Assembly (NCBI RefSeq): GCF_009193255.1
Contig: NZ_WACG01000005.1
Coordinates: 310,001-374,000 of the forward strand
From: Arthrobacter koreensis
Lineage (GTDB): Bacteria; Actinomycetota; Actinomycetes; Actinomycetales; Micrococcaceae
DNA: 64,000 bases
Reading direction: 5' to 3'
How positions within the stretch are numbered: the stretch's first letter is position 1; each line of letters starts with the position of its first letter. A model generated the notes under the pieces. The model saw nothing but the letters and a program-made list of their open reading frames with translations, did no database searches and was not told the DNA's origin. Shown here piece by piece: positions 23,152 to 64,000 of the stretch. The position numbers and the translations under genes are program-made.

Positions 23152-24258
23152 ATGAAGACCCAGACCCAGCTCCGCGCGCCGTTCGAACGTACAGTTTCCC
23201 CGGAGTCCATCCGAGTATTGGACCTCTTTTCGGGTGCCGGCGGTCTCACTCACGGGTTCTATGCCGCTTCCACTCGGTTCGTCACCGAAAGAGCAGTTGA
23301 GTTCGATCCAGCCGCGGCTGCGACATACGCTGCAACCTTCGGGCGGAAGGTCTATGCCGGACCGATCCAGGAGTGGCTCCACAAAGAAGACGTGCCGGAA
23401 GTGGACGTGGTCATAGGCGGCCCGCCTTGCCAGGGTTTTTCGCTGCTGGGCAAGAGAAACGCTCTAGATGAGCGCAACTCCTTGTGGGAGCACTATGCGT
23501 CTTCTCTGATTCGCGCAAAACCAAAATATTTTATCGTTGAGAACGTCGGCGCCTTTGGTAAGTCCCAGCAGCTTGTGGATTTCAAGGATGCAACGAAGCC
23601 CGACGGGTTCCTCCGCGACTACAGCTTTGAATGGCATGTTCTGAATGCCGCCGACTATGGCGCCCCTCAGGCACGAAAGCGAGCCATACTGATCGGTCAC
23701 CACCGAGACTTGCCGTTCCCCGGTTTTCCTCCGCCTACCCACGTAGGACGTCACCTTTCCGTTCGACAGGCATTATCAGGCGTGCCGATAGACGTGGACG
23801 GGACCGAGTTGCCGGACCGACGCACGGCAGTTGGCGACAAGTCCATGCCTGGGGCATTCAGGACCACGGAGTTGCATCTGGGCCGCGACTACGCGCAGCT
23901 TTCCCTGGATCGCTTCGCAGCCATCCCGCCTGGCGGCAACCGCATGGATCTGCCCGACCACCTGCTAGCTCCTTGCTGGGTCAACCATAAGAGTGGATCC
24001 GGCGACGTCATGGGCCGTCTCCGCTGGGACACCCCGGCGGTCACCATCCGGACAGAGTTCTTCAAACCCGAAAAGGGACGCTACATACATCCGAGCGCCA
24101 ACCGAGCCATCACGCACCTCGAGGCTGCCCGATTGCAGGGATTTCCGGACGAGCACCTCTGGGTTGGTTCAAAGACTGCCATAGCCAAGCAGATCGGCAA
24201 CGCCGTGCCGCTTCATCTGGGCAGGGCAATAGCGTCTCAGCTTCTCCTGCAGCTTTAG
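23152..24258 (+). CDS. drmMII: C5-cytosine DNA methyltransferase (DISARM DrmMII-like)
   Basis: 368 residues. All main motifs are visible: I (DLFSGAGGLTHGF, 24-36), IV (GGPPCQGFS, catalytic C93), VI (ENV, 130-132), VIII (PQARKRAILIG) and IX/X (RLQGFPDEHLW then IAKQIGNAVP). The target-recognition region lies at roughly 190-310. It methylates cytosine in a sequence not readable from here. It is the first gene of arm A. The next gene follows after 130 bp. No Shine-Dalgarno precedes ATG 23152, and TAACCT (23135-23140) sits where a minus-10 element of a leaderless message would be. The symbol is by role in DISARM class 2 and is tentative. Confidence 0.85.
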   Translation: MKTQTQLRAPFERTVSPESIRVLDLFSGAGGLTHGFYAASTRFVTERAVEFDPAAAATYAATFGRKVYAGPIQEWLHKEDVPEVDVVIGGPPCQGFSLLGKRNALDERNSLWEHYASSLIRAKPKYFIVENVGAFGKSQQLVDFKDATKPDGFLRDYSFEWHVLNAADYGAPQARKRAILIGHHRDLPFPGFPPPTHVGRHLSVRQALSGVPIDVDGTELPDRRTAVGDKSMPGAFRTTELHLGRDYAQLSLDRFAAIPPGGNRMDLPDHLLAPCWVNHKSGSGDVMGRLRWDTPAVTIRTEFFKPEKGRYIHPSANRAITHLEAARLQGFPDEHLWVGSKTAIAKQIGNAVPLHLGRAIASQLLLQL

Positions 24259-24387
24259 TTCGGAAAATGCTGGTTCCTGCGGTCCGTCGCTGAAGCTATG
24301 TCAGTGCCAGCAGGTATAACTGATGAACCAGCTATTTGAACGACCCTGACGCAAGGCGTTGGGCTTCCGGGGGGAAGTTAACAAAAT

Positions 24388-27300
24388 ATGGATGGCATCA
24401 GCACAAGCCAGTGGCAGAGCGTCGAAAGCGAACTGGCTAAGTTCGTCTTGAATGATTCCAGGAAGGCGCTGGAATCATTTCGTGTCCGCCCCGAGCTCGT
24501 TAGAGAACAAGGCAACATTGAGCAGGCGACGGTTCAGGGTGGCTATGGCCGCAAACAGCTCAACGAGCTGATCCAGAACGCCGCAGACGCTATGGACGGC
24601 TTGGAAGGCCGAATCCGTGTTGTGCTCACGGCCGATGCTCTGTACTGCGCGAATGAAGGCATGCCGTTCCAGCGTTCAGGCTACGCTGCTTTGCTGCTCT
24701 CGCACTCATCGTCGAAACGAGACGATCAAATCGGCCGATTTGGCCTCGGGTTCAAGTCCGTACTGCAGATTACGGATACCCCACACATCTTTAGCCGGAC
24801 GGCTTCGGTCCGGTGGGACAAGGCACAAAGCGAATCCGTCCTCGCTGAGATTGCGCCAGGGCTCAGCGATTATCCCGTCCTACGCCTGGCAACACCCGTC
24901 GATCCCTTCGAAGCCGCTGCAAAAGACGCCCTGCTGGCAGATCTCATGACCTGGGCATCCACTGTTGTCAAACTTCCTTTGAAACCCAACATCACATGGC
25001 TGTCCGAAGAACTAAAAGACTTCCCGCCCGAATTCCTTCTGTTCTCTGACCAGATCGGAAGGCTTGAGTTCGACGACGAGCGCGAGGCCACCAGTACCCA
25101 CTGGACGGCCACACGGGCAGGCTCACGCGTCACTTTGAGCGACGGCAGCGACTCCAGCGAATGGCGCGTTTTCACGGCAAAACACGTGTTTAGTGAAACA
25201 GCGAAGTCCGACGCGGGCAGCATCGTGGCCCGAGATGATGCCAAGGTTGTCTGGGCAGTGCCGATGGCCGGCAAAGCGCGTCAGAACCTGGGCAGCTTCT
25301 GGAATTATTTTCCAACAACCTCGCAGACCACTCTGCGCGGAATCGTCAACGCTCCGTTCAAGATGAACGAAGACCGGCACAACATGCTTCGGAGCGAATA
25401 CAATCGCGAGATTCTGACTAGAACCCTGCCACGCATGGTCGCGGGGGCACTTCCGGAGCTCTCGCCCGCTGACGATCCAGCCAGTTTCCTGGACTTGTTC
25501 CCTGCCCGTGGGCGAGAAGCCCGTTCCTGGGCGGACGAAGTGATCAATCTGCCCGTTATGCAGGCAGTCGCCGCGGTCCCTTCGCTCCCTGACCGGATGG
25601 GGCGGCTTCAATCCGCCGCCACGCTTCATGTCCCGCCTGCCCTGGAAGAAGCAACCAGGCTGGAAGAAAAGTGGAATGCCGCCGTCGGCCGGGATCGGCC
25701 GTGGGTACATGAGTCAGCGCTGAATAGCCGGACCCGCTCTGCCCAGGTTAATCGCATCCTCGAACTCAATCGCACAAAGCGGACATCTGTCACCGTGTGG
25801 CTTGAAGAGGTAGTCGCTGACGGGAGCTTGGACAGCATCGAGAAGGCACTGGAAATCGCGGTCGAAATTGACAAGCGGCACCCAGGGCTGCAGGAAGAGA
25901 TGCGCCGGAGCAGGGTTGTTCTGGCAGCAGACGGAGAAATGCGTCCGCTGATCACTCGGGATCTCTTCCTGCCCCTGTCCGCCCATGAGACAGAGCCGAA
26001 GTTCGTTGCAAATGCCCTCTACGAGCATGGTCACGTAGCTGACTATCTTCGGATTCTCGGATTCCAGGCATTGAATGCGCAGGGAAGAATTGTCCGAATC
26101 GCCCGGGAAGTATCCGAGGACTACGACTCCGCAGAAACTGCTGAGTCTCTCTGGCGGATGTCCCGATCCCTCCAAGTGCCAGAAACGCTGCAGATACTCC
26201 GTGAGAACACAGACACCGAGCGTCTCCTGGTCAAGTGTAAGAACGGCATGTGGAAGCCGCTACGCCTCGTCTGGCTCCCAGGGGCACTTATCCCGGCGGG
26301 TTCACCCGGTGACGAGCATCTGTTGGTGGATGAGCTGTTTCACCGCCCGGATCTCCGCCTTTTGCAGAATCTTGGGGCCCGCACAAACATCGGTGCACCG
26401 TCCATGCAACATGCGGGGGTACTTTATGAAACCTGGAAATCGCAGCTGAGTCGCCAGATCTCCCAGGCATCCGCGTCCGGCCCTGAACCGGTTTCTCCCG
26501 CCAGCCTAAAGTTCCCTCCGGCTCTTTGCACCGAAGGTCTGGAACTGCTTGCCGACGCTTCCTTTGCTACTCGAGCGAAGGTCACCGAGAGGCTGCTGTC
26601 GAATGAGCAGTATCCGGTTTCCGTCCAGTACGGCAGCATCGTCCGTACTTCGGAATCCGTGGATGGTCCTGATCTCTGGTGGATCCGCAACTTTGGCGTT
26701 CTCAAAACTCCGTTAGGGCTGGTGGACGTCAAATACTGTGTCGGCCAGCTCCCTGGTTTCCCAGAGATGTTCCTCCCCTATCCGGGAGACATTGCTCAAA
26801 CCCTCAACCTGCCTACCGATCCCCGAGCGGCCCAGTGGACTTTCGTCCTTCCTGCGGCTGAAAGCAAACTGACCCTGTCCCAAGTCCACCAGCTGTACGG
26901 ATGCATGGCACGTGCGGGGCTGAAAGCTCCCAAGGAGTTGCTGGTCCCGTTCAAAAACGGAACAACCCGCCATCTCACCTCACACGTCATCCTGGCCGCG
27001 GATGAAGCCAGTTTCACATTTCTGCGCTCCCGCCCCAACGTCGCCTGCGTCTACACAGGCAATGATGAACTTGACGCATCGCTCTCACAGATGTGGGGTC
27101 TGAATAGGGTTTCTGTATCTTCAAGGACTTCGCTTGAGCATCTTCCTGATGCTGACAAAGAGCCAATCTCGCTGGGCAAGCTCTTCCCACAGATCCACCG
27201 TGTCGTCAGTGGTGCCAGGTCCGGCATGCTAGCTGTACCGTGCTCGGAACTTCGAACCGTGGTCAGCAATGACTTCGACGAGACGCGCATAATCACGGAC

Positions 27301-29052
27301 CACAAGTCTCGGATCGAAGACGGCGTATTTTATTACTCGTCGTCACTGCAGCCCCGCAACGTTCTCGCAGCGTTGTTGGAAAGTCTGGGATCGAGACTTT
27401 CGGCCCACGAGGTTGCCAGCCGTCTCAAGAAACTGGAAGAAGAACGCAAGCGCCTTGAACGCGAACAGAAAGTCCGTGCGAAGGACACGGAAGCAGGTCG
27501 TTTCGTAGCACTGGTGGGTCGGCAGAAGCTCATGAATTTGCTCCCCGCGGAGCTGATTCAGTTGGCGGAGAACCGAGGGCTGATTCTTACCGATGATCTG
27601 TTGTTCGCAATAATGCAGACCCTTCACGGCAGCAATCTCCTGAAGGTGACCAAGTCGCTGGTGGATGACGAAGTGGTTGACCCTGAACAGTTCCGAGGCA
27701 GCCGTGATGAAAAGGAATTCCTCGAAGATCTTCTAGGGTTTTCGTTTGATCAGTCGGATTCGGTTAAGCGCAGGAAACCCGAACGGGAAGAGGTTACCGG
27801 GCCAGTACGTCTGTCGCCTCTTCATGATTACCAGTCAAGTGTCCTCGACAAAGTTCTCCGATTGCTGGACGGCCGCTCCGGCAAAAAGAGAGGCATCCTG
27901 CAGCTTCCAACGGGTGCGGGAAAGACCCGTGTCGCCGTCGAATCCGCAATCCGCGACGTAGAGAAGTCCGACGGCAAGCGCGTGATTGTTTGGATCGCTC
28001 AGACTGAGGAACTTTGCGAGCAGGCCGTTGAAACGTGGATGTATGTATGGCAGGCCGCTGGCCCCGCCGGGAAGCGGATGGCGGTTAGCCGCCTCTGGGG
28101 CGGCAACAAGGCGGCTCCAGAGGAAACCAAGCTCCATCTGGTCGTGGCGACGATCCAAACCCTCGCCAGTATCCAGGAAAACCGACGCCTGACCTACGAC
28201 TGGATGTCCCGGCCTGACCTCGTCATCATTGATGAGGCCCATGCTGCGACAACCCCGTCCTATACGCGGGTGCTCAGTTGGTTCGGGCGGTCCTACACCG
28301 ACAACAGCAACCTGCTCCTCGGCTTGTCTGCGACACCCTACCGCGGCGCCAACGAGGCGGAGACGAAACGGTTGGTTAACCGGTTCGGTGGGAATCTCAT
28401 CGTTCCTGAGCAGTTCGACTCGGATGACGCCCACAACTACCTTCAGCACATGGGCGTTCTCGCGAGCGTCAAACATGTCGAGCTGGAAGGTATCAAGATC
28501 CAGCTGAAAGATATGGCAAGCGTTCATAACAGCGACGAGCAGTCGTCGATGCTGGAAGCCAGGCTTGATCTCAATCAGGTCGCGCAGAGCCAGACCCGAA
28601 ACAACGTGATCCTCGACCACATCAAGAGCCGAGGAAAAGACGGCACCACCTTGGTCTTTGCCGCGTCCGTAGCACACGCTGAGGCCCTGGCCGCGGTACT
28701 GTCGTTGGAGGGTCTCCCGGCGGCAGCCATCTCGTCAAAGACGGATGCAGCGCACCGCCGGCGCCTCATTGAGGACTTCCGTAAGGGCCGCATCAAGGTG
28801 CTCACGAATTTTGACGTTCTGTCGCAGGGATTTGACGCGCCGAAGGTGGATGCCGTGTACGTTTGTCGTCCGACGTTTTCCCCTAACAAGTACATTCAGA
28901 TGGTCGGACGTGGACTCCGCGGACCCAAGAACGGTGGAAGCGAGAAAGTCCTGATCGTGAACGTCAGGGACAACCTCGAACAGTACGGCGAGAAACTGGC
29001 CTTCACGGAATTCGACTATCTATGGAACGCAGGAACCGTTAGTGCTCACTGA
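24388..29052 (+). CDS. GHKL-ATPase / DEAD-DEAH helicase fusion protein
   Basis: 1554 residues. The N-terminal 250 residues are a GHKL (Hsp90/sacsin-like) ATPase: N-box E60-x3-N64-x2-D67 in NELIQNAADA, a degenerate G1 (CANEGMPF), and GRFGLGFKSV (116-125). Middle residues 400-1000 have no recognised domain and end in a charged coiled coil (about 1008-1035). The C-terminus is an SF2 helicase: Walker A LPTGAGKT (K1179), DEAH 1282-1285, SATPYRG and motif VI QMVGRGLRG (1504-1512). A GHKL module on a translocase suggests a nucleotide-gated clamp. It is the second gene of arm A, with GGGGGGA upstream, and its end overlaps the next gene by 11 bp. It has no counterpart in classic DISARM. Confidence 0.85.
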   Translation: MDGISTSQWQSVESELAKFVLNDSRKALESFRVRPELVREQGNIEQATVQGGYGRKQLNELIQNAADAMDGLEGRIRVVLTADALYCANEGMPFQRSGYAALLLSHSSSKRDDQIGRFGLGFKSVLQITDTPHIFSRTASVRWDKAQSESVLAEIAPGLSDYPVLRLATPVDPFEAAAKDALLADLMTWASTVVKLPLKPNITWLSEELKDFPPEFLLFSDQIGRLEFDDEREATSTHWTATRAGSRVTLSDGSDSSEWRVFTAKHVFSETAKSDAGSIVARDDAKVVWAVPMAGKARQNLGSFWNYFPTTSQTTLRGIVNAPFKMNEDRHNMLRSEYNREILTRTLPRMVAGALPELSPADDPASFLDLFPARGREARSWADEVINLPVMQAVAAVPSLPDRMGRLQSAATLHVPPALEEATRLEEKWNAAVGRDRPWVHESALNSRTRSAQVNRILELNRTKRTSVTVWLEEVVADGSLDSIEKALEIAVEIDKRHPGLQEEMRRSRVVLAADGEMRPLITRDLFLPLSAHETEPKFVANALYEHGHVADYLRILGFQALNAQGRIVRIAREVSEDYDSAETAESLWRMSRSLQVPETLQILRENTDTERLLVKCKNGMWKPLRLVWLPGALIPAGSPGDEHLLVDELFHRPDLRLLQNLGARTNIGAPSMQHAGVLYETWKSQLSRQISQASASGPEPVSPASLKFPPALCTEGLELLADASFATRAKVTERLLSNEQYPVSVQYGSIVRTSESVDGPDLWWIRNFGVLKTPLGLVDVKYCVGQLPGFPEMFLPYPGDIAQTLNLPTDPRAAQWTFVLPAAESKLTLSQVHQLYGCMARAGLKAPKELLVPFKNGTTRHLTSHVILAADEASFTFLRSRPNVACVYTGNDELDASLSQMWGLNRVSVSSRTSLEHLPDADKEPISLGKLFPQIHRVVSGARSGMLAVPCSELRTVVSNDFDETRIITDHKSRIEDGVFYYSSSLQPRNVLAALLESLGSRLSAHEVASRLKKLEEERKRLEREQKVRAKDTEAGRFVALVGRQKLMNLLPAELIQLAENRGLILTDDLLFAIMQTLHGSNLLKVTKSLVDDEVVDPEQFRGSRDEKEFLEDLLGFSFDQSDSVKRRKPEREEVTGPVRLSPLHDYQSSVLDKVLRLLDGRSGKKRGILQLPTGAGKTRVAVESAIRDVEKSDGKRVIVWIAQTEELCEQAVETWMYVWQAAGPAGKRMAVSRLWGGNKAAPEETKLHLVVATIQTLASIQENRRLTYDWMSRPDLVIIDEAHAATTPSYTRVLSWFGRSYTDNSNLLLGLSATPYRGANEAETKRLVNRFGGNLIVPEQFDSDDAHNYLQHMGVLASVKHVELEGIKIQLKDMASVHNSDEQSSMLEARLDLNQVAQSQTRNNVILDHIKSRGKDGTTLVFAASVAHAEALAAVLSLEGLPAAAISSKTDAAHRRRLIEDFRKGRIKVLTNFDVLSQGFDAPKVDAVYVCRPTFSPNKYIQMVGRGLRGPKNGGSEKVLIVNVRDNLEQYGEKLAFTEFDYLWNAGTVSAH

Positions 29053-30844
29053 TATCAGCCTCGATTCCAGCCAAGAGGCAGTCGCGTCCGCCCCGGCGGA
29101 GGAGCGGCAGTTCGTACAAGCAGCAGCGGGACAGGGAAAAACTGAAGTTCTTATTTCTCGGATTTTGTATCTCATGGAGGAAGGTCTCAACCCTGCTGAC
29201 GAGATCCTTGTCCTGAGCTTCTCTCGGGCAGCCGTAGAAGCGGTCCGCAAACGCGCAAGGAACGCGGATCTGGAAAGCGTGCAGATCAGAACCTTCGACT
29301 CTTTCGCCGCGCAGATCCTCCTCGACGAGTCTGAAGCGGACGAGGCCCTCAGCGGATTCTTCGACTCGCGCATTCGCCAGGCTACGCAGCTTCTTAAAGG
29401 TGAGAATGTTCCTGACCGTGCTCTCCCCCTGAAACACATCCTTATCGATGAAGCGCAGGATCTTGTTGGCGACCGTGCAGAAATGGTCAAGGCACTTCTT
29501 GACGTCTGTGACGAAGACCTCGGATTCACCGTGTTGGGAGACCCGCTTCAGGGTATCTACGATTTCCAGCTTGACGAGTCCGAGTCTCAGCTGAGTTCGG
29601 CTGAGTTTGTAGCGGATCTTCAGGAGCGCTACGGAGCCGAATTCAGAAGCCTCGAAAAACACTATAGGGCCCGCTCTGATCAGGCGCGGGAACTCATTGA
29701 GATTGGCGACCGCATCAGGGGTATGGATCCCGCCGAGGCCGTGAGGTTGGGGCACCGCCTCCTCGACGAGTTCCGCGTCTCCGAAGGAAACAGCTCATCT
29801 CTCCTGGACGAGACCGCGTGCCTGGAACCGGTGGTGGGAACTACCGCGTTGCTGTGTTCTACCAACTACGAAGTGCTTATCAGCAGCGAGGTCCTATGGG
29901 AGGCCGGGTACCCTCACGTCGTACGCCGGCGTGCCCAGGATATGAGCGTTGCGCCCTGGGTGTATCGCGTTTTCCGAGACATCCAGGCCCGTCCACAACC
30001 ACGAGCAACCGTCCTGCAGCTCCTGGAGAACGAAAGATTGGACGAGGACAAGTGGCTGGACCTGAAAACAGCTGAAGGCGACTTCCGATCCTACGATTCA
30101 CTGGACATCGGTCGCCTGGCCCAGCGTTTGCGCGGACGCTCAGTACCGCTGTCTCTCACGGTTTCGGATCAGGCGCCGCTCACACTCTCGACAGTGCACA
30201 GGGCTAAAGGGCTGGAGTTCGACAATGTCTTGTACGTTCCCCCGATGCCGGATTGGCCAGGGTCCGAGAAAGACGAATCAGGACTCAAACAAAAGTACGT
30301 GGCATTATCCCGAGCGCGGGAGATGGTTATCACGACTCGGATACCCAAGAACGCTCTGGCCCCGGCGCGCACCGTTGACAGTCCCAGCCGATGGAGTGAG
30401 TTCGGTTTCGGAAAGGGAAAGCGCATCTATACCAAACGTCTGGAGTTTCTGAACGATGACGTCGAGTCGGTCTTTCCGGTCGGTGCCGTTGTGGCAGAGA
30501 AGTCAGAGGTGCTCCCAACGGAACGAATGACCGAAGACCTCCTCGGACAGCGGGTGACCGGAGAACTATATTCAGACGATTTCGATTCGGTTCCACGCTA
30601 TCTGCTGCGCCTCGGCAGCGGAGAGATCATCGGCCGCACAAGTGACAGGTTTGGGTATGCACTGAAACGTGCATTCAGTATCCGCCCCGGAAGCAACTGG
30701 CCACAGGCCTTCTCAGGCTGCCGGGTAGCTTCCATCGAGTGCGCGTCCGGAAGCCCCGAAGATACTCACTACGCCGGCCTGGGTGACTCGGGCATGTGGT
30801 TGCTCCCGCGATTGACCGGTCTCATAACACTTGAATGGAAGTAG
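29042..30844 (+). CDS. UvrD/Rep-like SF1 helicase
   Basis: 600 residues from GTG 29042. Walker A is AAAGQGKT (K33), motif II IDEAQD (136-140), motif III GDPLQGIYDF, motif V TVHRAKGLEFDNVLY and motif VI VALSRAREMVI (about 420). The length is short for UvrD, so the 1B/2B subdomains are reduced. A separate C-terminal region (about 490-600) is not recognised. It probably unwinds or translocates on single-stranded DNA as part of the DISARM-like set. The start overlaps the GHKL-helicase gene by 11 bp, and the end overlaps the ATG 30835 that lies in front of the drmA-like start. Confidence 0.88.
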   Translation: MLTDISLDSSQEAVASAPAEERQFVQAAAGQGKTEVLISRILYLMEEGLNPADEILVLSFSRAAVEAVRKRARNADLESVQIRTFDSFAAQILLDESEADEALSGFFDSRIRQATQLLKGENVPDRALPLKHILIDEAQDLVGDRAEMVKALLDVCDEDLGFTVLGDPLQGIYDFQLDESESQLSSAEFVADLQERYGAEFRSLEKHYRARSDQARELIEIGDRIRGMDPAEAVRLGHRLLDEFRVSEGNSSSLLDETACLEPVVGTTALLCSTNYEVLISSEVLWEAGYPHVVRRRAQDMSVAPWVYRVFRDIQARPQPRATVLQLLENERLDEDKWLDLKTAEGDFRSYDSLDIGRLAQRLRGRSVPLSLTVSDQAPLTLSTVHRAKGLEFDNVLYVPPMPDWPGSEKDESGLKQKYVALSRAREMVITTRIPKNALAPARTVDSPSRWSEFGFGKGKRIYTKRLEFLNDDVESVFPVGAVVAEKSEVLPTERMTEDLLGQRVTGELYSDDFDSVPRYLLRLGSGEIIGRTSDRFGYALKRAFSIRPGSNWPQAFSGCRVASIECASGSPEDTHYAGLGDSGMWLLPRLTGLITLEWK

Positions 30845-30852
30845 GCAAATAC

Positions 30853-33800: not shown

Positions 33801-34062
33801 GGACGCGGACGCGACGATCTTGGAACTTGAGAATCTTCTCGCGACATGGCGCAAGGAAGCTGCCATCAATCCGAAGCTCCGTTATTGGCTGATGCGTGAT
33901 CCAGACAATTCTTTGCTTGTCGACTTTGCGAAGGCACTCGAAGACCCGAAGTACCGTCCAACCACAACCAGAACGCCCTGGCCCACACCGTCGAGCATGC
34001 GCGATGTAGACGCCGAAACGACACTGCGACCCATTGGGGCCCGGAAGGATGCGAATGCCTAG
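30853..34062 (+). CDS. drmA: DISARM DrmA-like helicase
   Basis: 1069 residues from ATG 30853, preferred over ATG 30835 because GGAAGTAGG stands in front and DrmA proteins begin near this point. An N-terminal 400-residue region precedes Walker A FPTGGGKTEAYLGL (K436). The region between carries Cys pairs (C545/C548 and a C-P-N-R-D-C pair near 572-577) that look zinc-binding. Motif II is the unusual QDELHLISG (D635), motif III ASTATIRRA, and motif VI QATSRVGRKHPGL (876 onwards). These are DrmA traits. In DISARM, DrmA with DrmB forms the DNA-entry-blocking complex. The stop overlaps the next start by 8 bp. Confidence 0.88.
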   Translation: MSNLNAKYAFRAEMVDRLVEDLYGPSSPDEVLAERPLERYVTGVLWPAADDTLEDAPDEPESAAVEAGDSADDSPVANARLTYPTSLGLTVSVDLGKATSIRVIPQAAQYIPTLAAVQDPRRRSDSYEWRRAPVEDHHVTIDLLKSGRQITNIESGGLELYALVRPSENNVVTVTLALRNRRPKQDGEDRDQASWFQVGLTVEADAPALADRSKLRTDVSPDEDLASSELLYRNQMVFGAGHGCAVTWDPDDVHEDRCSKVSTTFIPRQEVSRSMAGDTHADLRLGLLSSGSRDEVLEQLEALVSDYSEWISATRSSSENGGGPSAVPAHLHPTAEKHLDSAEESRDRIAAGIELLRTSDEAFNAFQLANRAMHFQRSRQDWVRAGRPGEFSLGDHQSWRPFQIAFILLNLSSVTDEDHPERDFADLLWFPTGGGKTEAYLGLIAYCLLLRRLRDPMVSGVAVIMRYTLRLLTIQQFERAAMLICSLEHVRKTAAENLGDASFGIGLWVGAAATPNDTKEARRNLGKLRNGEDVVEGNPCQIEACPWCGSRLTVDNYVIEKQPYERMKVSCPNRDCDYSSGLPVHIVDTDVYRERPELVIGTVDKFARMAWKGDVANIFGRVHAGEPGPDLIIQDELHLISGPLGSTVGLFETAVDLASSSIGRAGGVEGAVRRPKVIASTATIRRADAQIRAVFNRTSRLFPQPGTDPNDSFFAEQAPRAEYGTREYVGVMAAGTSHATLMVRTYASLLHSAAVLDGDDATRDPYWTLMGYFNSLRVLGSAYLQVYDDVRARLKLLASREGISEAREVELSELTSRVSSNLIPGALKSLETGLGDARTPDDVVLATNMISVGLDVDRLGLMAVMGQPQSNAEYIQATSRVGRKHPGLVVTIFNSAKSRDRSHYEGFIPYHQALYRAVEATSATPFAARSRDRALHAVMVSALRMTDQRLRDDDRPGNISKAGTSVQQVFEFIRARVTAIQPVDADATILELENLLATWRKEAAINPKLRYWLMRDPDNSLLVDFAKALEDPKYRPTTTRTPWPTPSSMRDVDAETTLRPIGARKDANA

Positions 34063-36124: not shown

Positions 36125-36125
36125 T

Positions 36126-36160
36126 AGTTGTGGGGCCGGGAGCCGCCCGGCCCCACAACT
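36126..36160. terminator. Bidirectional terminator between the two convergent defence operons
   Basis: A perfect 15-bp stem (AGTTGTGGGGCCGGG at 36126-36140, complement at 36146-36160) with a five-base loop begins one base after the drmB stop codon and ends two bases before the other operon's stop codon. Both operons therefore end on the same hairpin. Confidence 0.9.
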
Positions 36161-36162
36161 GT

Positions 36163-37158: not shown

Positions 37159-37191
37159 GTTTCCCCCATTTGTTTGTAGCCAGTCTTGGTC

Positions 37192-39417: not shown

Positions 39418-39418
39418 A

Positions 39419-48700: not shown

Positions 48701-50422
48701 GGCCTCGATGGCGAACGCTCCGGATCCCAGGGCTGGCTCGCAGACGGTGAGGTGGAGGATGTCATCGGCCAGGGTTGTCTCGCCGTTCTGGTCCAGCAGT
48801 TCCTCCAGGGCCTGGGACACGACGAACTTGGTCAGGACCTCGGGCGTGTAGAAGGACGCCGACTGCTGGCGCTCCCGGCCAGCCAGCCGGAAAACAAACG
48901 AGCCCTTCTCATGCCGGACAGGTTTCTTCTCCCCGGTGAGCTCGTCTTCTGCTTTAACGAAGTGCTTCGGATCGATTGAGTCGGCCCGGTCCACCGGGAC
49001 AACCCAGGAGCCCTTTTCAGGGTTACCGTCCTTCGCCACTTCGTACAGCGGTTCTGCGGCGATGAAGCCGGTGTAGGACATGAGCCCTTCGTACACGGCG
49101 CCGAGCTGGTTGATGCCCAGCTCCGCATAGGAAATGAAGCCACGGTCCTTGCCGCGGGATTCCTTGCTCAGCAGCAGGTTGCGCAGCACCCGCTGAAGTT
49201 CCGAATTGCTGAGCCCCACCTCGTTGATGAGCGAGGTTGCTTCGGGCTGGAACAGGTCTGCCTTCAGCGGCTGGAAGACCAGGCCTTCGTTGTCCCCGCT
49301 CGCCTGTTCCATCTCATCGGGAGACATCCCCCGAGCCGGAGCGTGGCCGCCGTCGACAAGCCGGAAGAGCAGTTCCAGCGAATCATAGATGTGGGTGCCC
49401 CGCTGGGTTTCCCGGGACTGCATGTTGACCAGTGTCAGTTCACGGAGCCGGTCCAGACCGTATCCCTCGCTGTATTCGCCGGCTCCGACGGGAAGCACTC
49501 CCATTTCCGGGGAAGCCTCCGCGTAGAGCAGGAACAGGATCCGGTAGAGGAAGCGCAGGGACTGTTTGGCCAGAACCTGGCCATCGACGTCGTCCTCGGG
49601 AAGACCGCGGGCGGCGCGCCGCTGCAGGACGTCGTTCGCGATGATTTCGATGGAGCGGCGGATTCCTTCCCGCAGGTCCTGCGAGACGCCGACGGTGTGT
49701 TTGACGGAGGACTCCAGGACGGTGTCCCACCACATGGATCCGTCCGGGGCGGGCATCAGGGAATCCCTGCCGAAGATGCTTAGGAACCGGTCGGTCTCGC
49801 CGTACTTCTTGGTGTCGTTCCGGTCCGCGACGAGCAGTGCGTCCGCGGCGAGGTAGCGGCCTTCAGCCCAGCGTTCGGGCTCGGTGAGCACCATCCAGCG
49901 CCCGGCCATGATCACTACAAAGCGTGGAGCCTGCTCAGCTAGGTAAATCTCTGACACAAGCTTCGCAGCGGTGAGGTCGGTTTCCTTGCCGTCAACAAGC
50001 ACCCTGCCCAACGGCTGAACGGATGAAAGAACATCTTCAGGGGAATCAGCGGGCTTCGCTTCGAGGAACAGCACCTCGGACTGGCCTGTTGACCACACGC
50101 CGGCGACCGTAGTTTCGGTGCCGCTGCGGTTGAAGGTGGCGGCCGCCGTCGTTCCCTGGAATCCCAAAGCGCGGCGCAGCACGGAATAGGCTTCAGCGGC
50201 TCCTGACGGGTCTTCGGCCAATCCGGTCAGAAGCGCCTGCAACCGTCCGCGGACCTCGGCGAAACGGGTCAGCGTTGTCGGGTCTCCGTCTTTGGCCTGT
50301 TCGTCCCACGACTTGCGGAGTTTGATGACCTCGGCCTGGTAGGACTCCTTGGTGGAATCCGTGGTGAAGAAGTGCTCACTGATCCAGTCCTCACCGACAA
50401 CAATCGAATCAAAAGACGGCAT
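45782..50422 (-). CDS. drmMI: N6-adenine DNA methyltransferase, DrmMI/PglX-like
   Basis: 1546 residues. Motif I CEPALGSGAF lies near 562 and motif IV GNPPWVRPDWD near 951, an unusually wide spacing seen in large PglX/DrmMI and type IIG enzymes. Helical region PAEEYQQQLQRVKAQIALHQVHGVDLN and TAVELAEVSLWLDTM follow motif I. The C-terminal 500 residues probably recognise the target. The N-terminal 130 residues contain SEVLFLEAK (E121, K123), which resembles the second half of a PD-(D/E)XK nuclease site, but the partner Asp is not clear. The start overlaps the SNF2 gene's stop by one base (TAATG). It likely marks host DNA for arm B. The DISARM class 1 symbol is tentative. Confidence 0.85.
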   Translation of the reverse strand: MPSFDSIVVGEDWISEHFFTTDSTKESYQAEVIKLRKSWDEQAKDGDPTTLTRFAEVRGRLQALLTGLAEDPSGAAEAYSVLRRALGFQGTTAAATFNRSGTETTVAGVWSTGQSEVLFLEAKPADSPEDVLSSVQPLGRVLVDGKETDLTAAKLVSEIYLAEQAPRFVVIMAGRWMVLTEPERWAEGRYLAADALLVADRNDTKKYGETDRFLSIFGRDSLMPAPDGSMWWDTVLESSVKHTVGVSQDLREGIRRSIEIIANDVLQRRAARGLPEDDVDGQVLAKQSLRFLYRILFLLYAEASPEMGVLPVGAGEYSEGYGLDRLRELTLVNMQSRETQRGTHIYDSLELLFRLVDGGHAPARGMSPDEMEQASGDNEGLVFQPLKADLFQPEATSLINEVGLSNSELQRVLRNLLLSKESRGKDRGFISYAELGINQLGAVYEGLMSYTGFIAAEPLYEVAKDGNPEKGSWVVPVDRADSIDPKHFVKAEDELTGEKKPVRHEKGSFVFRLAGRERQQSASFYTPEVLTKFVVSQALEELLDQNGETTLADDILHLTVCEPALGSGAFAIEAVRQLADEYLKRKQAELDVQIPAEEYQQQLQRVKAQIALHQVHGVDLNSTAVELAEVSLWLDTMVQGLQAPWFGLRLRRGNSLIGSRRATYSRASIADKSWLKSEPSDAPLTGLVEAMANDSDDPQVVSRIHHFLLPAEGWGAAAEAKEVKDLAGEAQKELKAWRSRIKAKPTKTQIDRLVGLSGRVESLWKLALRRLQVAGTEARRDIEYFGKAETPDRVDGATRQPREAVTREQIEASLNDPDGSYQRLRRVMDAWTAFWFWPLTETATEGSQPPTLEEWISVLEGILGKTSKENLPSKYRVSGQTSVLSMASWGELEGIESFDHSTAQVRKIDSVLEQHPWLRVCENVAKEQGFFHWELDFAAVFGRGGFDLQVGNPPWVRPDWDENAIYAEFDPWWQLNDKQTQATKESKKEQAKADDGQRNFMTDQAASVEAVRAFLSSPATYPVVAGLRPDLYRSFMERTWRSSSRQGVVALLHPESHFTEKKAAHLRAETYRRLRRHWQFINELSLFEIHHLVTYGVHVYGAPKESPEFRMATSLYHPDTVARSEVHDGSGEVPGLKDVDGNWDTRPHAERIIRVDEKILRVWADILDEPGTPPLHARMVYPVNRASSRVLEKLSKAPRVRDLGLQYSSGWNETTDRKKGYFEVGSAVPHSWDDVILQGPHFTVANPFAKQPNPTMKNNLDWTEIDLEALPDNFIPRTSYQPVGDPDRYRRDYGTWLGTDGNPTSVRNQLRLGWRRMAATTGKRTLHAAPIPPGAAHVHPVYSVGPFDSPTVLLGQLAYFASLPMDFLIKSSGSSEIQFMLVGQLAKFDPSSPLAPHLVDRAAKLVCTTGIYAEAWESALGSAWKPEFVLRKASERRQAEVELDAMVALDTGLSADELCTIYRTQFPVLRGYEQNDLYDANGRKVPGDINRLYRKVGEKLTLEERTWTHPQSGVEYVFDFPFRSFDREEDMRKAYAHFENLLGDKS

Positions 50423-53310
50423 TACTGGTTAGCACCTTCCAAAGGAGCGGCAGGGGTATTGCGCGGGACAACCACAAGCAACGGGCGGACCAGCCTCTGA
50501 GCTGGGGCCAGTGACTGGGCAACACGTTGCTCCTCGGTCACGCGTTCCCGCTGCTTCCGGACTTCGCCGCGCTGAGCCAGCTCGAAGGATTCCTGCGTCC
50601 AGCCGTGCGCGCGGCTGGTCCAGGCATCGAGCCGGTCGCTGGCCTGTTTCGCAGCTTCAGCGAAGGTGAGTTCGAGGTTGTTGGCGGCTTGTTCGACGGC
50701 GTGCGGCAATAGGTCCTGCAGACCTGTGAGCTGCACCGGTCCGGGGTTGGTTGCCTTGGCATGGACACCAATCTCTGCCAGGTGCCTGCCGATATCCGGA
50801 ATGGGCTCGGCGATGCAGAAGTCCGGGCTCTGCGGGTTGGGGAATTCCACACCGATGAAGGCTTTGGACACCACCTGCCCGCGCTGGTTCATCAAGGTTC
50901 CCATCAGCAGGACCTGTGGAACGTCGACGTCGCCGCGGACCGCCAGCACCTCGCTACGGGACATTGAGGCGAGGGCCCGGTCGCTGGCCCAGTCCAGGAC
51001 GGGGTGCAGTGGCCCGAGGTAATGGGCTTCGGGCCAGCTCATGGTGTCCGACTCACGGGCGCGGTCCAGTTCCCGGGTGCCGGCCTGCACGTTCGTGGCA
51101 AGTTTGAGCTTTTCGGTAACTTTCCGTTCGGACAGGTAGTCCTGGGGCAGGTAGCCGAGGCGGTGCTGCAGGTCAGCGGGCGGCTCCAACTCCGCGATGC
51201 CGTGGCCGGTGTGGACGGTCCAGCCCAGTTTCTTCTGCGGGTCGCCGAAGGCTTCGTTGAGTGCTTCGTCGAGGAAATCCAGGTCCGTTGGATAGAGGCC
51301 CAGCGGCTTTTCCAACGGGACGTCCGGGATCGTTTCTGCGGCGTGGTCCTTTTGCGTCTCCGGGTTCAGGACAGCGTCGAGGAAGTCCCAGTCGTCGTCG
51401 TCCATTGCCTCAGGATCCGGGACCGTGTCCTCGAAGTCCTTTTTGCCCATCAGGACGTCGCGGATGGCGTCCTCTTCCTTCTTTTCGCTGTACTCCCCCA
51501 TCAACGAGGCGACGTCGTTGAGCACGGTGTGGGCTTCGTGTTCGCGTTCCATCAACCGGGTCAGGACCTTGATGTCGCCCGAGAACCGGGTGTTCGCCGG
51601 GTTCAGCAGGAGGGTGGTGATCTGCGGTTTGTGGCGCTGGCCAAAGCGATCGATGCGCCCGTTGCGCTGTTCGATACGGATGAGGCTCCACGGGATGTCG
51701 AAATGGATCAGGTGGTGACATTCAGCGTGCAGGTTCACACCCTCGGACGCGACGTCGCCGGTCACCAGGACGCGCAGCGGGCTGTTGCCGCGCTTGAACT
51801 GGTCCACGATGCGCTGCTGTTCAATGTCGCTAAGTCCGCCGTGCAGCAGACCGATGTTCTCCGGCTTGAGCCCCAGGGCCTTGGGGAGTTTGTTCTGCAG
51901 CCATTTAAGCGTGGCGACTCGTTCGGCGAAGACGACGGCACGGGTGTTGGAGCCCTTAGCGACGCCGATGCGTTTGAGGTAGCTGACCAGTTCGTTGTAT
52001 TTCGCGGATTCTCCGGTGTTGGCTGTTTTCGCCAGGTTCTGCAGGCGCGTGAGTGCTTCCGCTTCTTTGGCCTCCACCGGGGAATCGGCGTCGAGCTTTT
52101 TGAGACGTTCGGTGACGGTTTCCAGTAGCGCGGCTGGGCTGGAGAGGAAGGCTTTTGCCAGGGTCCAGGAGAACAGGGATCCGTTTTGCCCGGAGTGGGG
52201 TGCTGGCTTGCCGTCCGGGTAGAGCCAGACGTCAGAGAGTTCGTCGGCGATGGCGTTTTCAGCGGGCGATGCCGATACGAGGCGGTTGTCCGGTTCTTCG
52301 CGTTCGGCCCAATCTGCTCCAACTTCCTGGGCCACTTCCGGGCTGTGGCGGTGCCGGCGGATGATCAGGTTCTCGACCTGCTTGGCGTCGAAGCTGCCGT
52401 CGGGGCGGACGACGGTGGGGTCCAGGAGGCGGAGCAGCTCGGCGAAGGATTCGTTGCGGCCGTTGTGCGGGGTGGCGGAGGCCAGGATCAGTGCCTCGGC
52501 GTTGGGAGCCAGGATGCGGGCCAGCTCGTTGTTCAGCGTGCCGGTGTTGGTGAGGTTGTGGGACTCATCGATGACGACGGCGTCCCACTGCAGTTTGCCC
52601 AGCTGGGCGCGGTAGCGGGCGCTCTTGAGGGTATCGATGGAGATAATGGCGCGCTTGTAGTACGTGAAAGGGTTGCGGGTGGCCGGCAGTTTCTGGCGGA
52701 CCTTCTGGATGCCGGCGGAGTCTAGCCGTACGAACGGCAGGGCGAACCGGCACCAGAGTTCGTGCTGCATCTGTTCCAGGACGTGGCGGGGCGTGACGAT
52801 GAGGATGCGGTCTCCGCGGCCGCGCTTGACCAGTTCGCTGAGGATCATGCCGATCTCGAGCGTCTTGCCGAGGCCCACGGCGTCGGCGATCAGGATGCGG
52901 GGGCGAATGTTCTTCGTATCGAGCGCTTTTGCGACGGCGATCTGCTGGTACTTCAAGTTGCGGGAGAGCATGCGGGTGGAGACGGTGAGCTCTTTGGCGG
53001 ACTGCGGCGTCGGCGTTTTCCGGAGCGTTGTTTCCAGGAAAAGGCGGGCCTTGCGGTAGTTCGGCGTGTCGTCGGCGACGATCTTGGACTTCGCAGGGTC
53101 GACGACCTCGATGTCGTCGAGGCCGGAGTAGAACGCTGCCGTGGTGTCACGGACCAGTTCTGTCAGGCCCTGGACCCTCACCAGGGTGCCGTCGATGGAC
53201 GGCTCTGCCGCTGTGACCAGCCATTCCTCGTCCCGAATCCTCACCACCGAGCCCGGTGCGACGTTGAGCTGAGTTCTTAGCGGTGTAGTGGTCAAGCTGG
53301 TCTCCTGCAT
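50422..53310 (-). CDS. drmD: SNF2-family helicase, DrmD-like
   Basis: 962 residues from ATG 53310, chosen over ATG 53334 because AGGGGGA lies nine bases in front. The SNF2 core is clear (numbers counted from ATG 53334): DAVGLGKT 151-158, IDESHN 255-260, ASATPHNGRN, and the C-terminal lobe GDVASEGVNLHAECHHLIHFDIPWSLIRIEQRNGRIDRFGQ. The N-terminal 100 residues (VRIRDEEWLVTA..GLTELVRDTTAAFYSGLDDIEVVDP) are the leader typical of DrmD-like and RapA-like SNF2 proteins. The C-terminal 300 residues are specific to defence relatives. DISARM class 1 pairs DrmD with the DrmMI methyltransferase, as found here. Confidence 0.87.
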   Translation of the reverse strand: MQETSLTTTPLRTQLNVAPGSVVRIRDEEWLVTAAEPSIDGTLVRVQGLTELVRDTTAAFYSGLDDIEVVDPAKSKIVADDTPNYRKARLFLETTLRKTPTPQSAKELTVSTRMLSRNLKYQQIAVAKALDTKNIRPRILIADAVGLGKTLEIGMILSELVKRGRGDRILIVTPRHVLEQMQHELWCRFALPFVRLDSAGIQKVRQKLPATRNPFTYYKRAIISIDTLKSARYRAQLGKLQWDAVVIDESHNLTNTGTLNNELARILAPNAEALILASATPHNGRNESFAELLRLLDPTVVRPDGSFDAKQVENLIIRRHRHSPEVAQEVGADWAEREEPDNRLVSASPAENAIADELSDVWLYPDGKPAPHSGQNGSLFSWTLAKAFLSSPAALLETVTERLKKLDADSPVEAKEAEALTRLQNLAKTANTGESAKYNELVSYLKRIGVAKGSNTRAVVFAERVATLKWLQNKLPKALGLKPENIGLLHGGLSDIEQQRIVDQFKRGNSPLRVLVTGDVASEGVNLHAECHHLIHFDIPWSLIRIEQRNGRIDRFGQRHKPQITTLLLNPANTRFSGDIKVLTRLMEREHEAHTVLNDVASLMGEYSEKKEEDAIRDVLMGKKDFEDTVPDPEAMDDDDWDFLDAVLNPETQKDHAAETIPDVPLEKPLGLYPTDLDFLDEALNEAFGDPQKKLGWTVHTGHGIAELEPPADLQHRLGYLPQDYLSERKVTEKLKLATNVQAGTRELDRARESDTMSWPEAHYLGPLHPVLDWASDRALASMSRSEVLAVRGDVDVPQVLLMGTLMNQRGQVVSKAFIGVEFPNPQSPDFCIAEPIPDIGRHLAEIGVHAKATNPGPVQLTGLQDLLPHAVEQAANNLELTFAEAAKQASDRLDAWTSRAHGWTQESFELAQRGEVRKQRERVTEEQRVAQSLAPAQRLVRPLLVVVPRNTPAAPLEGANQ

Positions 53311-53362
53311 AAGTGTGTATCCCCCTGAGTCCATTGTCTCGTACGAGAGCGGACATGGGTTC

Positions 53363-55234
53363 CTAAGAGGTCAGAGCTCCCGGATGAGTCCATGCAGCGC
53401 AAATGGCCTCCGTTAGCTGGACTGAACGTGCTCGAATATCGGTTTCTGTCCACACAGCGGGATGGTCGTCAACTATGCCCTTGTTGATCGCGAGGATGCT
53501 GAAATCACTCAGCATGCTCCTTTTACCTCTGCCTGCGTCCTTTCCCGTTGGCGCCACTTCCATCGCCTCAGCATCCGTCCACGGGCGATTAGATAGGGCC
53601 GCGTTCAGACGCTGGGTGGTGAGGGTCAGATTACCCAACGTGTGAATCAACGAATCCCGCTTTTTCTCTGCATCGGGTTCCGTAGGAAGGTTGTTGAACC
53701 AGTGGGAGCGCCAGCCGCGGGGCATTACGTGTTCCACCTCCAGACCGTCTGGCAGTGTCACGTTTTCCTGTCTGGAGTGCCTCAACTGTTTCTCGACTTC
53801 TGCGAGAACAACACGCAGGCGTGATTGCCGCAAATTCCCGTATAGCCTTATGCCGGGAAGCTCCTCAATCATCTGCTCATCGCTGGGCCACTCACGGGAG
53901 TCTGCAGATTGGGCCACGAGAAACTGAACCACCGACGTCCCGCAGTTTTCCATAGGTACACCGTTCAGTTCCTTCAGCAGGCTCACCATCAGCCTACTTA
54001 TGTCCTTACTGGTACGGCGAAGTAGTGTTCGGCGGACCGCCCAGCTCTCCAAAGCGCCCAGCCCCAGTTCTATCTGCTCCTGGGGCACCTGATGGTTAGG
54101 CGACAGCATCCAAAGCAACAACGGCGTCGTTGCACCGAGCTCCAGAGCTTCGATCACCCGACGGTAAAATCGGCCCTGCGGAGATTCGTCGCCAATCTCA
54201 GCGAATGATCGGAAGATATCGGCATCCCGACGGAGGGCACGAATGAATTGAGTTCCTGATTCACCGTCCTGCATGTGTGTAGTTGCGTATTCCTTGAACC
54301 GCCGGAAGACCGTATCGCTGGGAATGTCGTCCTGAATCCGCATTATGAGCCAATACTGCAGAAAGATATCAATTCGCGAACGGAGAAGCCGGCCTTGGTT
54401 TATTTCCTGCCGCCACCACTCCTCGTCAAACGGAAGCCAATACTTCTCAGCCCATGTGTCTACATCTGCTTGGGCCCTTTCACCTTGCTGAAAAACCCAG
54501 TTCTTAATAAGGTCAGCAGCTAGCAGCGGTGTTCCTCGGTCGTTCAGCGTCTCAAAAATAAGCTGGTCGTCATCAGTCACACTTAGATTGATCGCCACTA
54601 GGTGCAGTTGATCACTCAGGACTTTAGCTAGGGCGGAAAGGCGATCGTAAACCTGAAACGTTTGCTCTTCATCGACGGACAGGGCCCAATCAGAGATCGC
54701 ATCCTGGAAGAAGGTATGGGCCTGAACAATTCTGTGATCCTGAAGTTGCAGGTCATCCTCAATCGTCCGGTCCATCGCCGCTTCAAACGCATCCCGGTCA
54801 GCCCTTGACGGCCACAGCTTGAAGCGGTTGCTCGTGCCTTTGAACCTGCGCGAGTCGTTTACGACCAGTTCTTGCAACGCTTCAGCATCGTCTTCGTGTC
54901 CATGGGCTTCTACGACTAGCTGAGCCGCATCTATGAGAATCTGCAGTGTGGTCATCCTTTGCTGCCCATCGATGACCTGCGACCTCGCAAGGTCACCAGC
55001 GGTGGCTGACACTTCCTTGATGACGACTGCACCCAGGAAGTGAGGGGACATGCCTCGAAGTTGACCGTCATTGGATGCTGCGTCAAGGACAGACTCGGCC
55101 ACACGGCAGACGTCGTTCCACAACGGCGCCCATTGGTCCTCTTCGCTCCATACATACGGCCTCTGAAACGCCGGAATTTCATACTGAACTTTGGAATCAA
55201 AAAGGTCTCTGGGCGTTACTGCTTCGGCCTTCAA
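53363..55234 (-). CDS. GmrSD-like DUF262/DUF1524 type IV restriction protein
   Basis: 623 residues from a TTG start at 55234 behind GAGGATAG. The N-terminal DUF262 (ParB-like) domain has IPAFQRPYVWSE (20-31), HFLGAVVI and IDGQQRMTTLQ (88-98). The C-terminal DUF1524 HNH-type nuclease has LEVEHVMPRGW near 497 and the closing TLGNLTLTTQRLNAALSNRPW. Fused GmrS-GmrD proteins cut DNA with glucosylated hydroxymethylcytosine or similar bases, powered by nucleotide hydrolysis. It is 52 bp upstream of the SNF2 gene on the same strand, so it probably heads arm B. Base composition looks more AT-rich than the genes on either side, suggesting separate arrival. Confidence 0.85.
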   Translation of the reverse strand: MKAEAVTPRDLFDSKVQYEIPAFQRPYVWSEEDQWAPLWNDVCRVAESVLDAASNDGQLRGMSPHFLGAVVIKEVSATAGDLARSQVIDGQQRMTTLQILIDAAQLVVEAHGHEDDAEALQELVVNDSRRFKGTSNRFKLWPSRADRDAFEAAMDRTIEDDLQLQDHRIVQAHTFFQDAISDWALSVDEEQTFQVYDRLSALAKVLSDQLHLVAINLSVTDDDQLIFETLNDRGTPLLAADLIKNWVFQQGERAQADVDTWAEKYWLPFDEEWWRQEINQGRLLRSRIDIFLQYWLIMRIQDDIPSDTVFRRFKEYATTHMQDGESGTQFIRALRRDADIFRSFAEIGDESPQGRFYRRVIEALELGATTPLLLWMLSPNHQVPQEQIELGLGALESWAVRRTLLRRTSKDISRLMVSLLKELNGVPMENCGTSVVQFLVAQSADSREWPSDEQMIEELPGIRLYGNLRQSRLRVVLAEVEKQLRHSRQENVTLPDGLEVEHVMPRGWRSHWFNNLPTEPDAEKKRDSLIHTLGNLTLTTQRLNAALSNRPWTDAEAMEVAPTGKDAGRGKRSMLSDFSILAINKGIVDDHPAVWTETDIRARSVQLTEAICAAWTHPGALTS

Positions 55235-55325
55235 CTATCTATCCTCATCTTATTGTTATTTCCGCTTGCAACCGCCCATCTTTCCCGCGCACGCACCCTA
55301 CGACAAGGATGAGCGGGGGCGGGGT

Positions 55326-59002: not shown

Positions 59003-59022
59003 GGCACCCCTCCCCGGAGCAC

Positions 59023-63998: not shown

Positions 63999-64000
63999 GC

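Follow-up and report, generated by a model that had tools for sequence, protein, structure and literature searches.

Introduction

The genome of Arthrobacter koreensis carries two defense-type gene clusters that meet tail to tail, and the question raised by this locus is whether they form one composite system or two systems placed side by side. The locus lies in a stretch of 64,000 nucleotides (contig NZ_WACG01000005.1, positions 310,001 to 374,000), which is referred to as the window and to which the coordinates below refer. A first-pass annotation had left this question undecided, and the doubt was justified, as the two arms are separable and yet have been joined repeatedly. Arm A (23152-36124, plus strand) is a variant of DISARM, and arm B (36163-53334, minus strand) has the gene content of the ARMADA type II system. 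The reading that is preferred here, at a probability of roughly 0.64, is that the arms are two complete, separately evolving anti-phage systems that were repeatedly brought and kept together, probably because they target forms that the invading DNA takes in succession.

Organization of the locus

The open reading frame (ORF) table gives five genes for each arm, at the positions where the first-pass annotation had placed them. Arm A encodes a C5-cytosine DNA methyltransferase, a GHKL/sacsin-like ATPase fused to a superfamily 2 (SF2) helicase, a UvrD-like helicase, DrmA, and DrmB. Arm B, in its reading direction, encodes ArmA, ArmB, ArmC, ArmD, and a NOV_C protein. The genes are tightly packed in both arms, where neighbors overlap by 1-29 bp or lie 0-33 bp apart, except for 129 bp that separate the C5 methyltransferase from the GHKL gene. 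The arms converge on a perfect inverted repeat of 14 bp with a 5-nt loop (36127-36159, no strand), which lies 2 bp past the DrmB stop codon and 3 bp from the NOV_C stop codon and is probably a two-way terminator. The repeat is followed by no T-run and is absent from the output of a simple terminator scan, and a promoter scan returned no more sites than were found in shuffles. Family scans assigned defense-type homologies across both arms and bear out the parallel make-up that had been claimed for them, with a C5 methyltransferase in arm A, an N6 methyltransferase in arm B, and helicases in both. The Walker A and Walker B boxes are intact in all six helicases. Arm A has a GC content of 0.587 and arm B one of 0.620; the flanks have values of 0.674 (1-22000) and 0.707 (58500-64000).

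Identity of arm B

According to a preprint by Bell et al. (2025, PMC12458937), ARMADA type II consists of a BrxHII-like ArmA, a PglX-like ArmB, a YprA-like ArmC, and a GajB-like ArmD in strict order; it protects E. coli from phage, and all four genes are required. The published ArmC ends in a Vsr-type nuclease, and the published ArmD begins with a RelE-like domain. Arm B features ArmA-ArmB-ArmC-ArmD in this published order, and so does a plasmid copy from E. coli (L121); its ArmC and that of the window share 28% identity. By gene set and order, arm B is ARMADA type II, a system already described. The first-pass annotation had instead read arm B as DISARM class 1 helpers (DrmD and DrmMI) with a DruE-like helicase; a DISARM/Druantia hybrid was rejected because the gene set and order match ARMADA II. 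The likeness extends to the protein classes, the Walker boxes, the NPPW motif, the MZB domain, the Vsr-like motif, and the long N-terminal extension of the UvrD-like helicase.

ArmA (50422-53334, minus strand, 970 aa) is an SNF2/BrxHII-like helicase with PF00176 and PF00271. ArmB (45782-50422, minus strand, 1546 aa) is a PglX/Eco57I-type N6-adenine methyltransferase with PF07669 and an NPPW motif at residue 952. Neither protein qualifies as a component of DISARM class 1: ArmA scores 344.8 against the DrmD model NF038317, under the cut-off of 610, and in PADLOC ArmB scores better with the IIG-type model (1653 bits) than with DrmMI (179 bits). ArmC (39419-45781, minus strand, 2120 aa) is a YprA-like giant helicase that matches PF00270, PF00271, and PF09369 and combines an MZB domain with a C-terminal Vsr-like motif. 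Its top PADLOC model is DruE3 (E 4e-81); unlike in Druantia, PADLOC finds no DruH in the arms, and the partners of ArmC are ArmA, ArmB, and ArmD. The YprA proteins of ARMADA and Druantia are described in the preprint as separate clades (PMC12458937). The ArmC C-terminus features the conserved motif PDF..DG..H..N..D..KR. The match of this Vsr-like part to PF18741 is weak (7 of 19 rows, best 5e-5), and a solved-structure search gave no useful PDB match. ArmD (37192-39417, minus strand, 741 aa) is a UvrD-like helicase (PF13361, PF00580) with an N-terminal extension of ~260 aa that is conserved in 18 rows. Sequence and solved-structure searches did not detect a RelE fold in this extension. The evolutionary distances of ArmA correlate with those of ArmB, ArmC, and ArmD at 0.94-0.98, and ARMADA evolves as a block.

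Identity of arm A

DrmA (30835-34062, plus strand, 1075 aa) is of the short form and scores 1010.6 bits with NF038325 (DISARM_DrmAS, cut-off 950); a profile search matched it to the solved DrmA structure 7S9V with an E of 2.5e-264 in two stretches. DrmB (34034-36124, plus strand) features an MZB/DUF1998 module (PF09369) and scores 480.7 with NF038324 (cut-off 240). Its length of 696 aa is that of the longest ORF, and the real start may lie further downstream. The UvrD/GajB-like superfamily 1 (SF1) helicase (29042-30844, plus strand, 600 aa) has Walker boxes, matches PF00580 with an E of 7e-24, and is conserved across 90 rows.

The GHKL-helicase (24388-29052, plus strand, 1554 aa) matches NF047352, PF04851, and PF00271. 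Its N-terminus scores 74.5 with the sacsin model NF047352 (cut-off 50) and matches a solved sacsin domain with an E of 1e-4. Residues 13-347 match the PADLOC model TmtA of the Tiamat system (E 3e-49), and the likeness to TmtA and sacsin is confined to the N-terminal part. In contrast to both, arm A joins the GHKL domain to a ResIII-type SF2 helicase within a DrmAB operon. Both the ATPase motifs and the helicase motifs are kept in a 33-row alignment. The central 800 aa have no known relative. Residues 350-1150 were modeled with AlphaFold2 (AF2) at a predicted local distance difference test (pLDDT) score of 86, and the model gave no PDB or viral match at E 0.001, which is weak evidence against a nuclease in this predicted central part.

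The C5 methyltransferase (23152-24258, plus strand, 368 aa) features PCQ and ENV motifs and matches PF00145 with an E of 8e-56. Its top PADLOC model is DruM2, and DrmMII scores weaker. Conservation of the arm was assessed with 579 confirmed DrmA relatives in 84,980 species genomes, from which the best 80 were taken with 10-kb flanks, as a nearest set and not a census. The methyltransferase looks like an optional neighbor of arm A, because a similar gene is near only 16 of these 80 loci (the flanks reach ~3.5 kb before the GHKL gene). In 75 of the 80, the GHKL-helicase, UvrD, DrmA, and DrmB genes follow one another in this order on the same strand. The five loci off this pattern are two short contigs (L138, L172) and three loci in which the GHKL gene is out of place (L132-L134); L133 has one further along, as does G118, which is the genome of L132. 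In the next 13 DrmA loci of the class sample, GHKL-helicase and UvrD matches are absent from all 13 (16-20 kb read). The distances of DrmA correlate with those of UvrD (0.93), DrmB (0.94), and GHKL (0.69) over 14 rows, and arm A evolves as a block.

The likeness to DISARM class 2 consists of the short-form DrmA, DrmB, and the nearby C5 methyltransferase. The differences are that DrmC and DrmE are missing, that the GHKL-SF2 fusion and the UvrD-like helicase stand in a conserved order, that the methyltransferase is optional, and that DrmB carries an ArmC-type terminal domain in seven loci. PADLOC and the family scans found no phospholipase D (PLD) family match among the ORFs of the arms. Among 25 genomes with arm A, the DrmC model NF038319 exceeds its cut-off in one, ~1.5 Mb away from the arm; a further 19 have weaker PLD-like matches, which were not counted as DrmC. 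DrmE is a marker of DISARM class 2, and its model NF038316 has no match in the 25 genomes. The assignment of arm A to DISARM thus holds for DrmA and DrmB and does not fit class 2 in its usual definition, since the locus has no DrmC or DrmE gene and the methyltransferase looks optional. Arm A is a DISARM variant with a true DrmA and DrmB and with a gene set for which no description was found in the literature. A search for a DISARM variant with a GHKL/sacsin helicase and UvrD, or for a so-named DISARM subtype, found no description, with subscription literature mostly outside the search, and the words GHKL and sacsin are absent from the main text of PMC12458937.

A plasmid search with the GHKL-helicase gave 228 records, none covering 80% of the protein. 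The best is an Arthrobacter plasmid with a C5 methyltransferase and residues 9-1016 of the GHKL-helicase, on which DrmA and DrmB have no match in the 40 kb read. A RelA/SpoT-domain gene occupies the expected GHKL-helicase position in Tsukamurella (L031, NZ_LR134452.1, 35063-36457); this record is named 'plasmid 10' and carries smc, rnc, and mutM, so that it looks like a chromosome. An ArmD-like UvrD helicase lies beside DrmAB, with no ArmA, ArmB, or ArmC in the 10-kb flanks, in nine of the 80 loci (L123, L128, L131, L133, L134, L141, L148, L162, L182), and also in G275 and in four of the 13 more distant DrmA loci (L235, L238, L243, L245). ArmD may be a DISARM partner independent of ARMADA.

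Co-location of the two arms

ARMADA stands beside arm A in 15 distinct loci, the window included: window, G281 (=L125), G290, G118 (=L132), G104, Tsukamurella L031, L126, L127, L129, L130, L135, L136, L139, L143 (=G317), and L149 (=G323). The stretches read cover the whole four-gene ARMADA set in 12 of them and end sooner in L129, L130, and L136. The two arms are convergent in the window and in G281, arm A is followed by ARMADA co-directionally in 11 loci, ARMADA precedes arm A in one (L149), and the arrangement is divergent in one (L143). The gap between DrmB and ArmA is 25-26 bp in L127 and L130 and ~95 bp in G104. It is 35 bp in Tsukamurella as annotated, where a mechanically called start would overlap DrmB; this locus lacks the GHKL-helicase, and its ArmC is annotated as two separate ORFs.

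Among 296 genomes of the class, the window genome included, DrmA-like matches (E 1e-30) were found in 45 and ArmA (E 1e-100) in 31. ArmA is present in 6 of the 12 genomes with verified arm A genes versus 24 of the 283 others (Fisher p 4e-4, uncorrected for descent, 295 genomes with the window excluded) and in 6 of the 32 genomes holding other DrmAs (p 0.04). In four of the six class genomes with both arm A and ArmA, the gene sets lie within ~11 kb. The neighborhood of ArmA was read in 24 of the 31 ArmA genomes (left out: G122, G152, G242, G260, G268, G276, G284). An ArmA match is present anywhere in the genome in 19 of the top 50 arm A genomes; the remaining 30 of the 80 were seen in their 10-kb flanks.

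The phylogenetic trees show mixed pairing. In the DrmA tree, from which duplicates were dropped (L125, L132, L158, and the G300 and G309 rows) and in which G164 and G284 have long branches, 12 of the pairs belong to a 21-row clade and 3 to a 10-row clade. In the ArmA tree, all 13 included pairs fall in one 24-row clade (support 91) and none in the 14-row clade; a length filter removed G281 and Tsukamurella, and G300, G301, and G309 were omitted as duplicates of L126, L127, and L135. The DrmA of G118 belongs to the Mycobacteriales clade, but its ArmA is near those of G104, G317, and G323, and the ArmA proteins of L127 and L130 stand next to that of the lone G038. A different DrmAB, with a DrmA that is 29% identical, directly precedes ArmA in G095 and G164, so that ARMADA also occurs joined to DrmAB of a second kind. 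In these two genomes (L082, 120-6756, for G095) the divergent DrmA and DrmB precede ArmABCD with a C5 methyltransferase on the opposite strand, and a sigma-70 gene with weak MzaA kinship precedes the set in G095.

A domain shared by DrmB and ArmC

The first-pass annotation had noted a similar C-terminal tail in the DUF1998 modules of the two arms, and profile searches agree. Residues 603-678 of the window DrmB (35840-36067, plus strand) form a C-terminal domain homologous to the ArmC terminal domain. They match a profile of ArmC tails with a domain E of 4e-14, and a profile-profile comparison of the two tails gives a probability of 99% and an E of 6e-20; the ArmD extension, used as a control, gives 0.2%. 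Across the compared loci, the window DrmB tail matches ArmC C-termini and DrmBs, many of the latter merely in the cysteine region before the tail. The ArmC-tail profile matches 8 of 97 DrmB rows at E <=1.4e-12, and all other listed rows have an E >1. The tailed DrmBs represent seven distinct loci (window, L122, L123, L125 (=G281), L128, L143, L148). Over the 296 genomes, with at most 16 candidates scored per genome, the profile has 29 matches at E <=1e-9. Of these, 23 come from ArmC-sized ORFs (2120-2389 aa) and two from G282, where ARMADA is broken up; a 338-aa ORF of G088, a 1057-aa ORF of G260, the window DrmB, and the G281 DrmB account for the rest. Weaker matches are mainly ORFs of ~300-460 aa.

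A tree of the domain places the DrmB tails of Micrococcaceae (window, L122, L123, L128, and L125, which is the Pseudarthrobacter G281) with the ArmC of G313, Tsukamurella, and G301 (100/96), whose sources are Mycolicibacterium, Tsukamurella, and a Frankiales metagenome-assembled genome. In Isoptericola, the DrmB tail and the ArmC from one locus form a pair (92/83). A single clade of DrmB tails is rejected by the approximately unbiased (AU) test (p-AU 0.015). The simplest reading of these trees is that DrmB captured the ArmC terminal domain at least twice. ARMADA or an ArmD-like gene adjoins 5 of 6 tailed versus 16 of 74 untailed loci of the 80 (Fisher p 0.004, indicative since the rows are related).

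Proposed mechanism and alternative explanations

The two arms of the window are presumed to be enzymatically active and to protect against phage, and a mechanism may be proposed from their domains. DrmAB, together with the SF1 helicase and the GHKL-gated SF2 helicase, both of which would stand in for DrmC and DrmE, may load on single-stranded DNA ends or forks of unmarked DNA. PMC9142583 reports that DrmAB prefers 5'-overhang DNA and that its ATPase rate is lower on 5-methylcytosine DNA. Arm A, which has no recognizable nuclease, would then unwind and block, or stall, the invading DNA. The C5 methyltransferase, where present, would mark self for arm A, and ArmB would mark self by N6-methyladenine. 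ArmA and ArmC are predicted to remodel and unwind unmarked DNA, which the predicted Vsr-like domain of ArmC would cut. The ArmC-type tail of DrmB could serve as a shared docking surface by which arm A engages the ARMADA machinery or its substrate. The division of labor in which arm A unwinds and ARMADA cuts is drawn by analogy with ARMADA II and Druantia III, another YprA-type system; as described in the preprint, ARMADA II is anti-phage and synergistic with Druantia III for a subset of phages (PMC12458937). That preprint tests Druantia III and describes Zorya II arrays, and the partner in the window is a DISARM variant.

A number of findings weigh against the two systems being kept together for a joint function. 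Defense genes cluster anyway, and in this genus the island site is a hot spot for restriction genes. ARMADA is not seen at most arm A loci, with 50 of the 80 genomes searched beyond the 10-kb flanks, and the largest DrmA clade (61 rows) has no pair. Around 18 of the 20 further class-sample ArmA loci, all but G095 and G164, the 20-60 kb read gave no match to DrmA or DrmB. The DrmB-ArmA gap is 0.1-5 kb in the other measured co-directional loci, and the sets are ~11 kb apart in G118 and ~9 kb apart in L149. The DrmA-ArmA distances correlate at 0.76 over 13 pairs, with 1 of 5000 permutations as high, so that some of the pairing simply reflects descent. The genomes of four of the seven tailed DrmBs (L122, L123, L128, L148) have no ArmA match, and the tail is thus kept without ARMADA; the tail tree comprises 106 columns with long branches, and 5 of its 20 inner branches are starred. 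Much of this would suit two independent systems that lie side by side through a shared preference for hot spots with no functional link, as would the unrelated restriction systems that three congeners hold at the GntR-side site. After thinning of near copies, the DrmA-ArmA correlation falls to 0.29 over 9 pairs, with 522 of 5000 permutations as high. Together with the correlations within each arm, this value indicates that each arm is one unit, that close relatives inherit the pairing, and that partners are exchanged at depth. Two unlinked neighbors are nevertheless judged unlikely: the pairing recurs across several families and in four orientations, DrmB and ArmA are 25-35 bp apart in three loci, and the ArmC terminal domain arose on DrmB at least twice, the nearest ArmC in one case being that of the locus itself. 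The first-pass condition for refuting a single composite, that each arm is mostly alone elsewhere, holds in part: each often is, which makes one obligate system unlikely, but the repeated joining and the shared domain make a mere chance neighborhood unlikely as well.

At the other extreme, a single obligate machine that needs both arms for any defense was rejected and is very improbable, because lone copies of either arm are common. The four-gene ARMADA II also protects alone, as reported in the preprint (PMC12458937). The eight co-directional genes of L127/G301, a similar run in Tsukamurella, and the domain common to DrmB and ArmC would fit such a machine. A less strict form of cooperation, a super-system in Actinomycetota in which arm A, having no recognizable nuclease, recruits the nuclease machinery of ARMADA and DrmB gained the ArmC domain at least twice as an adaptor, is tentative. 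A further alternative concerns arm A and is compatible with the other readings: arm A could be a plain DISARM class 2 that has lost drmC and drmE, in which the GHKL-helicase and UvrD are passenger defense genes. DrmA and DrmB exceed the curated DISARM cut-offs, DrmC is described as dispensable and often missing in PMC9142583, and GHKL is less fixed than UvrD, being misplaced in L132-L134 and having a RelA/SpoT-domain gene in its position in Tsukamurella. The constant order and coevolution of the four genes, and the absence of the GHKL-helicase/UvrD pair from the more distant DrmA loci, make this alternative quite doubtful. The reading of two complete systems, repeatedly brought and kept together, is therefore retained. 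A DISARM variant that keeps two additional helicases, has no DrmC above cut-off near it in the 25 genomes, and recurs beside ARMADA with its predicted nuclease offers a testable answer to the question of the DISARM nuclease for at least one lineage, with the domain shared by DrmB and ArmC as the candidate contact. If this reading is true, the synergy of ARMADA and Druantia would extend to a second kind of YprA partner.

Genomic setting and accompanying genes

The island (23080-57260) is flanked by a GntR gene and an MFS gene. The GntR gene is present in 5 of the 29 genomes of the genus, including that of the window. In congeners it stands beside a type II restriction-modification (RM) system (G357), a type I RM system with a type IV enzyme (G356), and a type I RM system (G350); a fourth congener (G346) was matched on the GntR side only. 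Because three congeners hold unrelated restriction systems there, the GntR-side site is a defense hot spot in the genus. No tRNA was found in the window, and no integrase was found among the ORFs scanned.

Relative to the published ARMADA type II, the window adds a NOV_C gene after ArmD and a GmrSD gene before ArmA. The gene for the NOV_C (NO VEIN C-terminal) protein (36163-37158, minus strand, 331 aa) closes arm B, with ArmD on one side and the hairpin on the other. The protein scores 31.0 with PF13020 (cut-off 22.1) and features a D...EVK motif, in which D243 and E256-V-K258 are invariant in four rows, the other three being 74-77% identical to the window. The motif, read by eye, makes a PD-(D/E)xK nuclease possible; the structure model was useless (pLDDT 33). 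An EVE/PUA-like N-terminus was also seen by eye and is unsupported.

The gene for the GmrSD-type modification-dependent restriction enzyme (53363-55234, minus strand; PF03235, PF07510) shares the strand of ArmA and lies 28 bp upstream of it. GmrSD is near ARMADA also in G317 (between ArmB and ArmC), G198, G261b, and Tsukamurella L031, and there is none in the stretch read of G281; it is a variable companion of arm B and not a constant part. An EcsC-family gene follows beyond GmrSD on the strand of arm B (ORF table; window 53363-56444). In G101, GmrSD and an EcsC-family gene occur together ~13 kb from an arm A without ARMADA.

Other genes are found at the end of arm A in several loci. In L128 (18973-23090), response-receiver and HEF_HK kinase genes lie immediately upstream of ArmD at the end of a Micrococcaceae arm A. 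L123 (17836-18684) features a second NOV_C protein at this end of its arm A, and L122 (16810-21732) features NERD-helicase and PD-(D/E)XK genes.

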